Shown here: positions 13,424 through 58,846 of the stretch, one piece after another
How positions within the stretch are numbered: position 1 is the stretch's first letter
Layout: each line of letters begins with the position of its first letter
DNA from: Gemmatimonadota bacterium
Lineage (GTDB): Bacteria > Gemmatimonadota > Gemmatimonadetes > Longimicrobiales > Gaopeijiaceae
Direction: 5' to 3'
DNA length: 58,846 nt
NCBI GenBank assembly: GCA_028874995.1
Contig: JAPPGM010000139.1
Span: 1-58,846 of the forward strand
Made by a program: the position numbers and the translations under genes
Notes under the pieces: model-generated
Seen by the model: only the letters and a program-made list of their open reading frames with translations
Database searches by the model: none
Told to the model about the DNA's origin: nothing

Positions 13424-13603
13424 GGTCTTACAATCGACGCGCGAGGGAAACAACGGGGACGGGCACCCTGCTTCCCCACATCGGTCGGGCTTGTTAATCG
13501 TGGATTCCGTCTGCCGGGGGAGGTCACTCGGACATGTTCCACGCCGAGGGGGGTGAATGGGAGCATGATGGAGGAATCAAGGCATCCTCGCCGAGGCCGA
13601 AAA

Positions 13604-13646
13604 GTCATGTGTGATTTACTTAATGTAAAGTGTGATTGACATAGGA
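13604..13646 (+). repeat. dispersed TTNAC-N5-GTNAA element, copy 1
   Basis: The core TTTAC-TTAAT-GTAAA at 13615-13629 is a perfect inverted repeat, preceded by GTCATGTGTGA and followed by GTGATTGACAT. The same order and spacing, GTCATG then GTGATT then a second TTGACAT, recurs at 50508-50546. The 3' end runs straight into the directional motif at 13637. Confidence 0.5.
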
Positions 13647-13744: not shown

Positions 13745-15487
13745 GTGACGCAGATCGAAACGTCCTTCCGAACTGGCCGGGTGGCCGGCGGCGTGCGCGG
13801 GACGCTCGCCTGGTTGTGTCGGGTGGGGCGTGTGGGGCGGTGTGTGGTTCTCATGCTGCCGTTTGCGCTCGCCGCGCAGGCCGGCGACTCGCAGGAGGGA
13901 GACTGCTTCAAGGGCTTTGATGATATCCGGGTCGTTCGGGAGTGCATTGGGGAATACGGGCTACAGGCCTGGAGTCCTGGTATTCTCCACTTCGTTGCAA
14001 GCTACACCACCAACCCGACCATCGTGCGCCTCCTCCTGCAGGCTGGGGCGGATCCGGACGCACCGGACAACGATGGGTGGACCCCGCTCCACCAGGCGGG
14101 GCTGAACAGCATGCCGGTGGTGGTGGCTCACCTCCTTGACGCGGGCGCGGACGTAAACGCGAGGGACAACGAGGGATACACACCCCTTCACCGGGCGGCC
14201 GGTGGCAACGGCCGCGCCGCCCACGTGCTGCTCGACCGAGGCGCCGATCCCGTGGCGGGTTACGATGGCCGGACGCCGCTGCACTTCGAGTTGCGGTACC
14301 AAGCCGAGCCACGGCTGGTGTCGAGGTTGTTGGACGCGGGTGCCGACGAGTTTCTGACACCGCTGCAGCTGTCCGCAGTCCGGGGCGATTTGACTGGGGT
14401 CGAACAGCTTCTGGCGGGAGGTGCCGATCCGAACGACGGGGACCCGTATGGCTGGGGTCCGCTGCACTTCGCGGTTCCGCTTGGCGGGCCGGAGGTGGTG
14501 TCGGCGTTGCTGGCTGCGGGGGCTGACCCCGGGGAGCGGACGACCGGCGGGGAAGCGGCGCTTCACTTGGCGGCAAGACTGTCAACGTCGCCGGTTGTCT
14601 CGGCTCTGCTGAGTGGGGGCGCGGACCCGAACGTTCGAAGCGAACGGGGCTGGTTTCCCCTGCACTACGCGGCCCGTTATCAGGAGGAAGCGCTCCTGCC
14701 GGTGATCACTGCCCTGTTGGAGGCGGGTGCGGATCCGGAGAGCCGGGACGACTACGGCCGTACCCCGCTGCATCTGGCCCCGGGGAACCCGGAAATGTCG
14801 GCTCCGGCTGTCGAGGCGCTGCTGCGAGCGGGGGCCGACCCGATGGCGCGGGATGAAGATGGCGAAACGCCCCTCCACAATGCCGCCTGGCAAATGTCGG
14901 CTCCGGTCGTCGAGGCGCTGCTGCGAGCGGGGGCCGATCCGATGGCGCGGGATAAAGATGGCCACACGCCCCTCCACGATGCCGCCTACGCCGACGACCA
15001 CACCGAGAGGGTGACTCCGGTTGTCGAGGCGCTGGTACGAGCGGGAGCCGATCCGATGGCGCAGGATGAAGATGGTCACACTCCCCTCCACAATGCCGCC
15101 ATGGCCGCCGAGCTGGCCGCCATGGCCGCCGACCGCGCCATCGATGTCGCCCTCATCGAAGCCCTGTTGGCCGTCGGCGCCGACCCTCGGGCGGAAAACG
15201 AGTGGGGTTTCCGCACCTCGTCCGACCCGGTCTGGGACGACGACGGCCCGCACTACGACGTGTGGACCGTGACCGTGGAAACGGTGGGGCAACGTGTAGT
15301 CATAGATATGGAGTCGGGCGACGTGGACGCCTACCTGAGGGTGCTCCGAAAGGACGGCAGGACGATCGCGACCGACGACGACGGGGGGTCGGGATCGAAC
15401 GCAACGGTGACGTTTTGGGCGCCGTATGCGGGGGACTACTTCGTCAATTACGCGGATTACCGATCCATTCACTTCCAGGAGAATTGA
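13745..15487 (+). CDS. secreted ankyrin-repeat protein with C-terminal PPC-like domain
   Basis: 580 residues. A hydrophobic stretch ending MLPFALAAQAGDS suggests export, though a long n-region precedes it. Residues about 75-490 are ankyrin repeats (GADPDAPDNDGWTPLHQAG, GADVNARDNEGYTPLHRAA and others). The last about 80 residues (YDVWTVTVETVGQRVVIDM, then DVDAYLRVLRKDG, then IATDDD) resemble the PPC domain found at the ends of secreted peptidases. The domain ends abruptly at SIHFQEN, short of its usual final strand, so the 3' end may be truncated. The next gene starts 2 nt after the stop. Start GTG/ATG choice is uncertain. Ankyrin domains bind proteins; partner unknown. Confidence 0.75.
   Translation: MTQIETSFRTGRVAGGVRGTLAWLCRVGRVGRCVVLMLPFALAAQAGDSQEGDCFKGFDDIRVVRECIGEYGLQAWSPGILHFVASYTTNPTIVRLLLQAGADPDAPDNDGWTPLHQAGLNSMPVVVAHLLDAGADVNARDNEGYTPLHRAAGGNGRAAHVLLDRGADPVAGYDGRTPLHFELRYQAEPRLVSRLLDAGADEFLTPLQLSAVRGDLTGVEQLLAGGADPNDGDPYGWGPLHFAVPLGGPEVVSALLAAGADPGERTTGGEAALHLAARLSTSPVVSALLSGGADPNVRSERGWFPLHYAARYQEEALLPVITALLEAGADPESRDDYGRTPLHLAPGNPEMSAPAVEALLRAGADPMARDEDGETPLHNAAWQMSAPVVEALLRAGADPMARDKDGHTPLHDAAYADDHTERVTPVVEALVRAGADPMAQDEDGHTPLHNAAMAAELAAMAADRAIDVALIEALLAVGADPRAENEWGFRTSSDPVWDDDGPHYDVWTVTVETVGQRVVIDMESGDVDAYLRVLRKDGRTIATDDDGGSGSNATVTFWAPYAGDYFVNYADYRSIHFQEN
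14795..15090 (+). repeat. near-identical tandem ankyrin-coding repeats
   Basis: The word ATGTCGGCTCCGG opens copies at 14795 and 14894, 99 nt (33 codons, one ankyrin repeat) apart, and a third diverged copy starts near 15011. Similarity is at DNA level, including synonymous sites, which indicates recent expansion or conversion of the array. Confidence 0.7.
15221..15385 (+). repeat. PPC-coding direct repeat, left copy
   Basis: This stretch (from CTCGTCCGAC onward, encoding YDVWTVTVETVGQRVVIDM) is closely similar in DNA to 17423-17576 in the gene at 16771. The two copies are about 2.2 kb apart in direct orientation. Confidence 0.65.
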
Positions 15488-26356: not shown

Positions 26357-26393
26357 CACAACGTAAAGAGAACGTTACTTTCTGTCAATCACA
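26357..26393 (-). repeat. dispersed TTNAC-N5-GTNAA element, copy 2
   Basis: Read on the minus strand: GTGATTGAC, then AGAAA, then GTAAC (core 26374-26388). It lies between convergent genes ending at 26264 and 26474 and resembles the copies at 13615 and 50519, including the leading GTGATT. A weak look-alike of the directional motif (ACATTTGGTGGCTC) lies beside it at 26397. Confidence 0.4.
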
Positions 26394-26473
26394 GTATACA
26401 TTTGGTGGCTCACCAGCCCGCTTCAGGAGGGCGGGGCCTCCAAGGTCGCAGCACGCAGTCCCGAAGGCGCCCG

Positions 26474-45480: not shown

Positions 45481-45600
45481 GATCCCGTGCCGGGACCCCT
45501 TGGGGTCAAGGTCTTGGTATCGCCCATACACGCACGAAGCGTGCCAACCCGCACCACGGCGTAAACGCCGGCAGCCCGGGGACATAATCCCCCCGGCATT
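45481..45600 (-). promoter_or_regulatory. hairpin-rich leader of the ECF sigma gene
   Basis: Several short perfect stems lie just before the sigma start: GACCCC/GGGGTC (45494-45507), CACGC/GCGTG (45529-45543), CGGCG/CGCCG (45557-45570), and a C/G stem at 45574-45597. Further up, GCCACTC/GAGTGGC (45689-45716) forms another, with an AT-rich stretch (45650-45683) that may hold the promoter. A regulated 5' leader is possible. The 500-nt gap 45448-45948 holds no gene. Confidence 0.4.
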
Positions 45601-45948
45601 TCGAACGGCGATGCATTCGGACCACTTCGCTTCACCCGTCCACGCTGTAAAGCATACATTACATTATGGAATGTCTGCTATACACTCTGCCACTCCAATG
45701 CTTCGCTCTGAGTGGCTCCTCGGGCCAATAGCGCTGCCATTCCCCCTCGTCGCGCCTTGCCGGCCCGGCGCCTCGCCGCTCTCGGTGCTCGCTGGGGCTC
45801 TATCCACGGACTGGTCCCGAGCCGGTGATTCCGTCCTCACAAGGGGACACCGGTCTCCCTTTCGGGTGACGGCGCGGCGGCGGCGGTGCGTGAACTGGAC
45901 CATGCGCCGGACCAGGGATATGCGGAGCTGGAAAGACACACCGGGCTG

Positions 45949-49324: not shown

Positions 49325-50446
49325 GTGGGATTCACGCCCTTCCAGATGGAGCGCTGGCAGTCCACCTACGAGCACCGCGTCCGCTTCAACCTGTCGGAGA
49401 GCGGCGTGCATCCCCTCACCGTGGGCGAACTCCTCGCGCTCGGCGGCGGCGGCATCGATCTTTCGGCCGTGCGGCTCGGCTACAGCCAGTCCAACGGCAC
49501 CGACGAGTTGCGCGCTCTGATCGCGTCGCAGTACCCCGGTGCCTCGGACAGCTCCGTGGTCGTCACGGTCGGGGGCGCCGAGGCGAATTTCGTGGCCTTC
49601 TGGGAGCTGGCGGAAAGCGGAAAACCGGTTGCGGTCATGCTCCCCAACTACATGCAGGTGCCGGGCCTGGTCGAGAACTTCGACGGCGGCTTCATCCCGT
49701 TCCATCTGCGAGAAGAGACGGGGTGGCGCCCCGACCTGGACCAGCTGGCGGCGGCGCTGGCGGCGGGGGCGGGCTTCATCCTGATCACGAACCCGAACAA
49801 CCCCACGGGCGTGGCGCTCACCACCGCCGAAATGGCCGACATCGTCTCGCTCGCGGACCGCCATGGCGCGTGGATCCTGGCCGACGAGGTGTACCGCGGC
49901 GCCGAGGTCGGGACCGATCCCGTCCCGAGCTTCTGGGGCCGTTACGACCGGGTGCTCGTGACCAATACGCTGTCCAAGGCATACGGTCTCCCCGGGCTGA
50001 GGCTGGGGTGGGTGGTGGGGCCGGACGACGTGGTGGCGCGGCTGTGGGCCCGCACCGACTACACGACCATCGCGCCGCCTTCCGTCTCCGACGCACTCGC
50101 CACAGTCGCGCTGTCACCGGCCGCACGGCCACGCGTGCTGGCGCGAACCCGGGGCATCATCCGGCGCAACCTGGGCATCACACAGGCGTGGATGGAATCG
50201 CACGGCGGCCTGTTCAGCTGCACCCCTCCCGACGCCGGCGCGATCTGCATGGTGAGGTATCGCGCCCCGGACCCCTCTTTGGAGCTGGCCGAGCGGCTGC
50301 GCGTCGAGCACAGCCTGCTGGTGGTCCCGGGCGCGCACTTCGGCGTGGAGGGGACCATGCGGATCGGTTTCGGTCCTCCCGAGGAGGAGCTGATAAGCGG
50401 CCTGGAGCGACTGGGATCGGTGTTCGCGACGGCAAATGTAGTGTAA
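49325..50446 (+). CDS. class I/II PLP aminotransferase
   Basis: 373 residues from GTG 49325, with AGGAG 8 nt before it. PLP-fold type I marks are the NxxNPTG loop in ILITNPNNPTG, DEVYRGAEV with the cofactor-binding Asp and Tyr, and the lysine in VTNTLSKAYGLPGLRLGWVV; the C-terminal Arg lies in MRIGFGPP. The specific substrate cannot be read; the family includes aspartate, alanine and capreomycidine-synthase-like members. It is divergent from the M16/NUDIX set, with 150 nt between. Confidence 0.85.
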   Translation: MGFTPFQMERWQSTYEHRVRFNLSESGVHPLTVGELLALGGGGIDLSAVRLGYSQSNGTDELRALIASQYPGASDSSVVVTVGGAEANFVAFWELAESGKPVAVMLPNYMQVPGLVENFDGGFIPFHLREETGWRPDLDQLAAALAAGAGFILITNPNNPTGVALTTAEMADIVSLADRHGAWILADEVYRGAEVGTDPVPSFWGRYDRVLVTNTLSKAYGLPGLRLGWVVGPDDVVARLWARTDYTTIAPPSVSDALATVALSPAARPRVLARTRGIIRRNLGITQAWMESHGGLFSCTPPDAGAICMVRYRAPDPSLELAERLRVEHSLLVVPGAHFGVEGTMRIGFGPPEEELISGLERLGSVFATANVV

Positions 50447-50448
50447 TG

Positions 50449-50545
50449 CGCAGTTGACAAGATGGAAATCGCAGTTGACATCACGTGCCGTAACCCTCAT
50501 GACGAATGTCATGCGTGATTGACAAAACGTCAATTGGAGTTGACA
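50449..50545 (+). repeat. TTGACA array with TTNAC-N5-GTNAA element, copy 3
   Basis: TTGACA occurs four times on one strand at 50454, 50475, 50519 and 50540, that is, at spacings of 21, 44 and 21 nt. The first two repeats share CGCAGTTGACA. The third opens a perfect inverted repeat TTGAC-AAAAC-GTCAA (50519-50533), and CATGAC-GAAT-GTCATG lies at 50498-50513. The array fills the gap between two convergent genes, so a promoter role is unlikely. Confidence 0.55.
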
Positions 50546-50591
50546 TCCAGCGGGACCGAATCGGGTGGTCCCGCGCGCAGCCTTCGCACCC

Positions 50592-51272
50592 TCAGTCGCT
50601 CAGCGCCACCTCTTTGGTGCAATCCGGATCTTCGTGGCCGGCGCGGTTGACGGCCCGCGCGACAGGGTGGAGTCGCAGCTCCGGCGGGTCGGCGCGCTCG
50701 ACGATGGCCTGTAACGATTTCAGCACGGTCCCCCGCGCCAACCAGTCCGTCCAGCAGTCCTGGGGCAGAATGACGGGGACCCGGTCATGCAGCCGGCGAA
50801 TGGGCTCGGGAGCCTCGCGCGTCAGGATTGCGAAGGTGGTGAGCCGGGCGCCGTCGCCGTCCCTCCACAGTGCCCAGATCCCGGCCATGGCGAAGAGGGC
50901 GGAGCCGGGACGGTGGATCCAGTACGGCTGCCTGCCCGTTGCGCGCGCCTCCCACTCGTAGAAGCCGTCGGCGGGGACCAGGCAGCGCCGCGCGAGGAAG
51001 GAATCGCGGAAGGCGCTCCGGGTCGCGACCGTTTCGGACCGGGCGTTGATCAGGCGGGCCCCGGCACGAGGACTGTCGGCCCAGTGAGGGACGAGTCCCC
51101 ACCGCATGGGCCCGGCGCGCCGACCTCCGGGGACCGCGATCACCACGGGCGCCTCGTCGGTAGGCGCGATGTTGTACCGCGGCCGGAACCCCTCGAGCGC
51201 GGGAGAGATCTCGGCCGCCAGGGTCTCGGCTACGTAGCCGAGTTCGGCGGTCAGGGTGAAGCGGCCGCACAT
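50592..51272 (-). CDS. SRAP (YedK/HMCES-like) abasic-site shielding protein
   Basis: 226 residues. It starts MCGRFTLT, where Cys2 becomes the catalytic thiol after Met removal and crosslinks to abasic sites in single-stranded DNA. Other family blocks are RPRYNIAPTDEAPV, MRWGLVPHWADS, INARSETVATRSAFRDSF, RCLVPADGFYEWE and the His in LHDRVPVILP. Length and motifs are complete. It protects replication forks from abasic DNA damage. The 3' end faces the aminotransferase across the TTGACA array. Confidence 0.93.
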   Translation of the reverse strand: MCGRFTLTAELGYVAETLAAEISPALEGFRPRYNIAPTDEAPVVIAVPGGRRAGPMRWGLVPHWADSPRAGARLINARSETVATRSAFRDSFLARRCLVPADGFYEWEARATGRQPYWIHRPGSALFAMAGIWALWRDGDGARLTTFAILTREAPEPIRRLHDRVPVILPQDCWTDWLARGTVLKSLQAIVERADPPELRLHPVARAVNRAGHEDPDCTKEVALSD

Positions 51273-51347
51273 GGTCCGTCAACGGTCCACGGTGAAGTCG
51301 CCAACCCGGCGCCCCGCCATTCCCGGTGCTCGGGCCTTTTCCACGGA

Positions 51348-58486: not shown

Positions 58487-58560
<74 letters not shown>

Positions 58561-58620
58561 ATGGAGCAGTAATGATCCACGAGCGGTGATCGCGGGTCAA
58601 GACCGCAGGAGTGCCAGGAG

Positions 58621-58846
<226 letters not shown>

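Follow-up and report, generated by a model that had tools for sequence, protein, structure and literature searches.

The regularly spaced TTGACA array between two convergent genes of the window, by which we mean the whole stretch of 58,846 nucleotides that was analysed, is made of two copies of a strict 39-bp palindromic site placed 65 bp apart. Both copies are probably operators of a one-component regulator, the predicted binder, in which an Xre-type HTH (HTH_3) is fused to a molybdate-type PBP_like domain (HTH-PBP protein).

We reread the sequence and found the four plus-strand TTGACA hexamers of the first-pass annotation at 50454, 50475, 50519 and 50540, with the spacings of 21, 44 and 21 nt that it had given. 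Of 400 simulated windows (order 2), none had four hexamers on the same strand within 92 bp, and lone hexamers were not enriched in the window (11 vs. 12.4 expected). The repeated element is longer than TTGACA and corresponds to four half-sites, TGTMAA-N6-TTKACA-N3-TGTMAA-N6-TTKACA. Two perfect inverted repeats had also been described and both are present, TTGAC-AAAAC-GTCAA and CATGAC-GAAT-GTCATG, but the second is incidental since it is not retained in the relative G021, and its right arm simply coincides with the half-site that opens unit 2. The location between convergent gene ends was confirmed by reading the region 49700-51300, with an aminotransferase gene on one side and an SRAP gene on the other (Table 1).

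We then looked at the spacing of the half-sites in 438,634 bases, comprising the window and loci L122-L141. The 6-3-6 spacing gave 60 strand-hits, corresponding to 30 sites, the other even spacings (6-4-6, 7-3-7, 5-3-5, 6-2-6, 8-3-8 and 9-5-9) gave 0-2; at a score of at least 19/24, there were 7 hits with the one-off spacing 5-3-6 and 6 with 6-3-7. A two-class mixture split the sites into class 0, of the TGTATACTATACATKACATAATGTAATG type, and class 1, of the TGTCAACTGCAGTTGACA type, to which the array belongs. Around class-1 sites, the information in the flanks was ~0 beyond about 2-3 bp.

Table 1. Coordinates of the sites and neighbouring features in the window (gap types are from our own gene calls).
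Feature	Position	Strand	Remarks
39-bp unit	13603..13641	+	48.1 bits; gap not convergent
39-bp unit	26362..26400	-	35.8 bits; convergent gap
MITE copy, long form, with operator insert	45570..45813	-	terminal inverted repeats CAGTCCGTGGAYA / TGTCCCCGGGCTGCC
39-bp unit within MITE copy	45646..45684	-	53.2 bits; gap not convergent
Class I/II aminotransferase	49346..50446	+	PF00155, 1.3e-49; stop codon inside unit 1
Unit 1, four half-sites	50442..50480	+	PWM 44.6 bits; overlaps the aminotransferase TAA stop codon
Unit 2, 26 bp beyond unit 1	50507..50545	+	PWM 42.4 bits
Convergent gene for SRAP (SOS response associated peptidase)	50592..51272	-	PF02586, 4.1e-68

In total, the window contains five 39-bp sites. 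The related loci already noticed at 13615 and 26374 are real and proved to be parts of full units, and a fifth unit, inside a MITE copy, had been overlooked; among these three non-array loci, only that at 26362 lies in a convergent gap. A random frequency genome-wide was rejected, with 144 forward and 145 reverse matches vs. 53 and 54 for the reversed pattern. When the strict pattern, allowing up to 3 mismatches, was searched in the source genome (G000), 123 sites were obtained, and none with the reversed pattern. Likewise, a 39-bp PWM gave 105 matches of at least 14 bits and 89 of at least 28 bits in 1,380,093 bases, whereas three equally large Markov controls gave none. By extrapolation, the source genome would contain ~240 sites and G021 ~180. 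The first value was obtained from 89 PWM sites per 46 strict sites in the sample, multiplied by the 123 strict sites; we scaled through the strict count because the 1.38 Mb sample consists partly of contigs already known to have matches.

The suggestion that these are protein-binding sites and not ordinary promoters is borne out by half-sites that are conserved without mirrored covariation and by searches of the array for promoters and terminators, which matched neither. Annotators should be warned that such TTGACA repeats resemble -35 boxes, yet are not promoters. In the simplest binding mode, two dimers would occupy the two 18-bp dyads of a unit, 21 bp apart and on one helix face. Since each unit is palindromic and sites are found near gene ends, they could also be read as RNA hairpins or terminators, but this is very improbable: mirrored positions do not covary in the 105 sites, so that the unit is not a hairpin, no terminator matches at the array, and its RNA folding is ordinary (z = -0.43). 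A known RNA family was rejected as well, the Rfam matches in the window being confined to its end, where a tRNA and a partial RNase P RNA lie on the minus strand (58487-58846).

To define the conservation of the array, we compared the gap after the aminotransferase gene within the genus. In G021, both units keep the distance to the stop codon that they have in the source genome (unit 1 at -2, unit 2 at +63), the inter-unit distance of 26 bp being exactly kept, and in G012, unit 1 was at the same -2 offset. A weak unit was present in the orthologous gap of G019, and L056, whose coordinates match G010, showed one unit 13 bp past the stop codon. With one peptide motif as a guide, 14 of 21 genus loci were readable, and 10 of these 14 gaps were without a unit. 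In the gap of G007 (L337), MITE-end-like DNA (CCACGGGCTGCC) and no operator was seen. Between the source genome and G021, 42/48 positions were identical in the half-sites, 21/30 in the spacers and 5/26 in the inter-unit DNA, with 83% identity over the final 300 nt of the aminotransferase CDS.

By BLAST of the site flanks, some class-0 sites were found to be inside a repeat, three tandem 249-bp copies of which, with terminal inverted repeats, were found in G021 (C1:207150-207894). This 171/247-bp repeat is short, non-coding, bounded by terminal inverted repeats, dispersed and different between relatives, as a MITE is. Pairing of the ends revealed two forms, one of 171-172 bp without operator and one of 244-249 bp with it. 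The difference is a single ~76-bp insert with AGCGAAGC-like repeats on either side, and this comparison of sequences shows that the MITE captured the operator as an insert. With a 250-bp query, the MITE was detected in 23/23 genus genomes. A profile census gave 29 copies in our sample, 9 of them with a site, and 23 copies in 800 kb of G021, again 9 with a site; MITEs thus hold 9/89 of the sites in the source genome and 9/40 in G021. In G008, none of the 38 scored MITE matches covered the operator insert, and no site was found in 20 fetched loci (best score <0).

The idea of a mobile element therefore holds for a minority of sites, those of the 244-249-bp MITE including the copy in the window, and does not hold for the array, which is not inside a MITE: class-1 flanks share no similarity, and no element boundaries were seen around it. 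The more general reading, in which all sites are pieces of mobile elements (the MITE family or its solo ends) spread by transposition with no host function, and the array a relic, seems quite improbable to us. It would account for the sites that the MITE with its terminal inverted repeats holds in both genomes, and for a MITE in one G021 gap that is absent from the matching gap of the source genome, the reverse being seen at another gap. However, ~90% of the sites in the source genome are without a recognisable MITE, their class-1 flanks are uninformative, the MITE copies of G008 are without the operator, and at the array the half-sites are conserved and the neighbouring DNA is not, which weakens this reading. 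In the survey of orthologous sites, where both flanks were available for only 3 sites of the source genome and 3 of G021, two non-MITE places were conserved and two MITE places were not.

IS21-type transposon ends have multiple ~20-bp transposase-binding repeats and TG..CA termini. The TG..CA ends of the unit and its 21-bp periodicity resemble IS21/Tn7-type ends. It is nonetheless hardly conceivable that the sites are IS21 ends, as only 3 IstB matches exist in the genome and the three fetched IstB loci had no motif match; istAB genes were not found between or beside the repeats. A phage origin was also rejected, blastn of 50430-50600 giving no match.

Next, we determined where the sites lie relative to genes, which were called with our own codon-model caller. 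The 72 distinct gaps with a site were co-directional (50), divergent (14) or convergent (8), against 429, 132 and 94 of the 655 background gaps that were 39 bp or longer. The excess in convergent gaps that had been anticipated is thus refuted (8/72 vs. 94/655, chi-square p = 0.70). When only non-MITE sites in co-directional gaps of 60-600 bp were considered, they were closer to the end of the upstream gene (n = 37, median 0.26, KS p = 0.0005), and could be upstream activator sites. A stop codon was overlapped by 8/89 sites, and 9/89 were inside a called CDS. Along the chromosome, sites were spaced almost at random, and a regular spacing was not convincing (CV 0.87, P = 0.107 for all contigs; 0.71, P = 0.042 for G021 alone). 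Neither was any functional theme when facing genes, controls and gene-end neighbours were compared. Among the families listed, ankyrin genes were found for 4/64 facing genes, 0/57 controls and 3/58 gene-end neighbours, one example being at 13853-15487 in the window.

These data bear on the possibility of a genuine, large HTH-PBP regulon, in which the sites would be upstream operators of downstream genes and those in convergent gaps either by-products or operators for unannotated transcripts. In accordance with it, an auto-operator is conserved ahead of the regulator gene, many sites in co-directional gaps are about 100-200 bp ahead of a gene start, and one conserved site is positioned after a coxG gene. 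On the other hand, the orientation of the site-bearing gaps matches the background and the facing genes share no family theme that the controls lack. A molybdate regulon in particular does not explain the sites, because only 3 Mo-hydroxylase large-subunit (MoCoBD_1) genes were found and the loci fetched around them contain 0 sites. Since there is neither a convergent excess nor a promoter bias, we consider such a regulon unlikely. The sites are instead intergenic, genome-wide and independent of promoter orientation, as those of nucleoid-associated or architectural proteins are.

The distribution of the sites among genomes was then investigated. Strict sites numbered 26-243 in 22 of the 23 genomes of the genus, G010 being the richest (243) and G008 the sole site-poor member, with 1. 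Outside the genus, 2 of 36 relatives had 1-2 strict sites; when 298 genomes of the phylum were searched, 25 of the 280 outside the genus had 1-2, and all 280 were within 0-2. The reversed control pattern gave 0 in all genomes. These counts show that, among the genomes searched, the amplification is confined to one genus. The latter consists of Gemmatimonadota known from MAGs, several of which are named Longimicrobiales or are similar to the bins of sponge studies. With the terms used, our search of the open-access literature found no paper on these sites.

A candidate for the cognate protein came from the rare sites outside the genus. In 7 of 10 fetched singleton loci, a small Xre HTH gene of one type was present, its operon being preceded by the identical 39-bp architecture. 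We take these small Xre regulators to be of the COG1476 type, with autoregulatory operators; they have an HTH homologous to that of the HTH-PBP protein but, unlike it, lack a PBP domain, and their genomes have one or two strict sites each. A profile of these HTHs (A1), run on 59 genomes, detected one HTH-PBP protein in the source genome and in 21 site-rich members, with a second, partial HTH match in G007 and G011. With the full protein of the source genome as query, it was present in 22/23 genus genomes; in G008, it was found neither in this way nor with A1. HigA-type and other HTH_3 antitoxins of the source genome were rejected as cognates, since among the 24 HTH_3 matches, most of which were read, an HTH of the right type was seen in L233 only.

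The HTH-PBP gene, at G000:C30:15249-16346, is the first of a modABC-like operon (G000:C30:15249-18831). It overlaps a ModA-like gene by 4 nt, and permease and ATPase genes come next, these downstream genes matching SBP_bac_11, BPD_transp_1 and ABC_tran. The protein contains HTH_3 and PBP_like (PF12727, 3.2e-39), its PBP region being nearest to the C-terminal part of a molybdopterin biosynthesis model. Many PBP folds match its predicted structure (pLDDT 70), those of phosphate-, molybdate- and tungstate-binding proteins included; a sequence search of the PDB with the regulator gave HTH proteins only. A site of 34-58 bits was located 33-110 bp upstream of the HTH-PBP gene in 21/21 fetched genus loci (G017 left out), and modA was downstream in 20/21, the exception, L263, ending at the locus edge. 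HTH_3-PBP_like regulators of the same domain architecture occur in other genera (G023, G033, G034, G035 and G038), there without amplified sites. As these genomes have 0-1 strict sites, the protein alone brings no amplification. In G010, a single MAG, a loss of ~98 aa has shortened the PBP domain of the regulator (L265, G010:C53, 919-1701, minus strand), whose tail is shifted; the modA gene beside it is intact.

Sites and regulator co-occur in 22 genus genomes and are jointly absent from G008, save for the 1 strict site. In an aminotransferase tree, G008 groups with G020, G007, G011 and G022 (support 98/95), although its branch is long and two chosen outgroups fell within the genus group. Given this grouping, G008 is more likely to have lost the regulator than to descend from ancestors without it. 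Only one MAG, long-branched and 94% complete, represents G008, so that the regulator could be absent from the assembly rather than from the genome; the sites are missing there too. From location, co-occurrence and co-loss, we infer that the HTH-PBP protein is what binds the sites.

The protein would then bind genome-wide, in a manner more global or architectural than that of a classical promoter regulator, because neither a preference for promoters or for an orientation nor a functional theme was seen for the sites. The absence of promoter preference, together with the partly deleted ligand domain in the site-richest genome, points to such a role. In the convergent gap, the two tandem sites may act as a roadblock, an insulator or an anchoring site, and site number may have grown by mutation and selection as well as by transposition of the operator-bearing MITE. 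We tentatively propose that a molybdate-type regulator may have become a chromosome-wide architectural or insulating protein in one genus, with an operator-capturing MITE helping to disperse its sites. The amplification in one genus, the relatives with 0-2 copies and the double loss in G008 offer a direct way to test how a regulator moves from local to global and whether a MITE drives this shift. If the proposal holds, a transposon would, in a bacterium, have dispersed the binding sites of a regulator. G008 would then be a natural knock-out, with no regulator, 1 site and an operator-free MITE, and G010 a natural ligand-blind variant with the most sites. Moreover, long and short MITE forms, with the operator insert as sole difference, coexist in one genome and would allow before/after comparisons.

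The closest precedents are the Correia elements with an IHF-site insert and the decay of ModE sites in Geobacter. Correia/NEMIS elements of Neisseria come in forms of 107 and 155 bp, with an IHF-binding site in the longer one (PMC2229807). As here, a MITE has a short and a longer form, the extra internal segment being the site of a DNA-binding protein; in our case, however, the captured site is predicted to belong to a one-component regulator of the ligand type, and the great majority of sites in the source genome are outside recognisable MITE copies. In Geobacter metallireducens, ModE sites vanish after loss of the regulator (PMC2700814). Similarly, a molybdate-type regulator lies beside modABC in our case, and in G008 the sites are gone with the regulator. 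In contrast to ModE, the HTH_3-PBP_like protein has no ModE fold and a different operator, and the hundreds of sites show neither a promoter bias nor a Mo-enzyme theme. Directly upstream of the regulator operon in the source genome, two tandem genes with a GPP34 (Golgi phosphoprotein 3) domain were observed (C30:13665-15043, L184).
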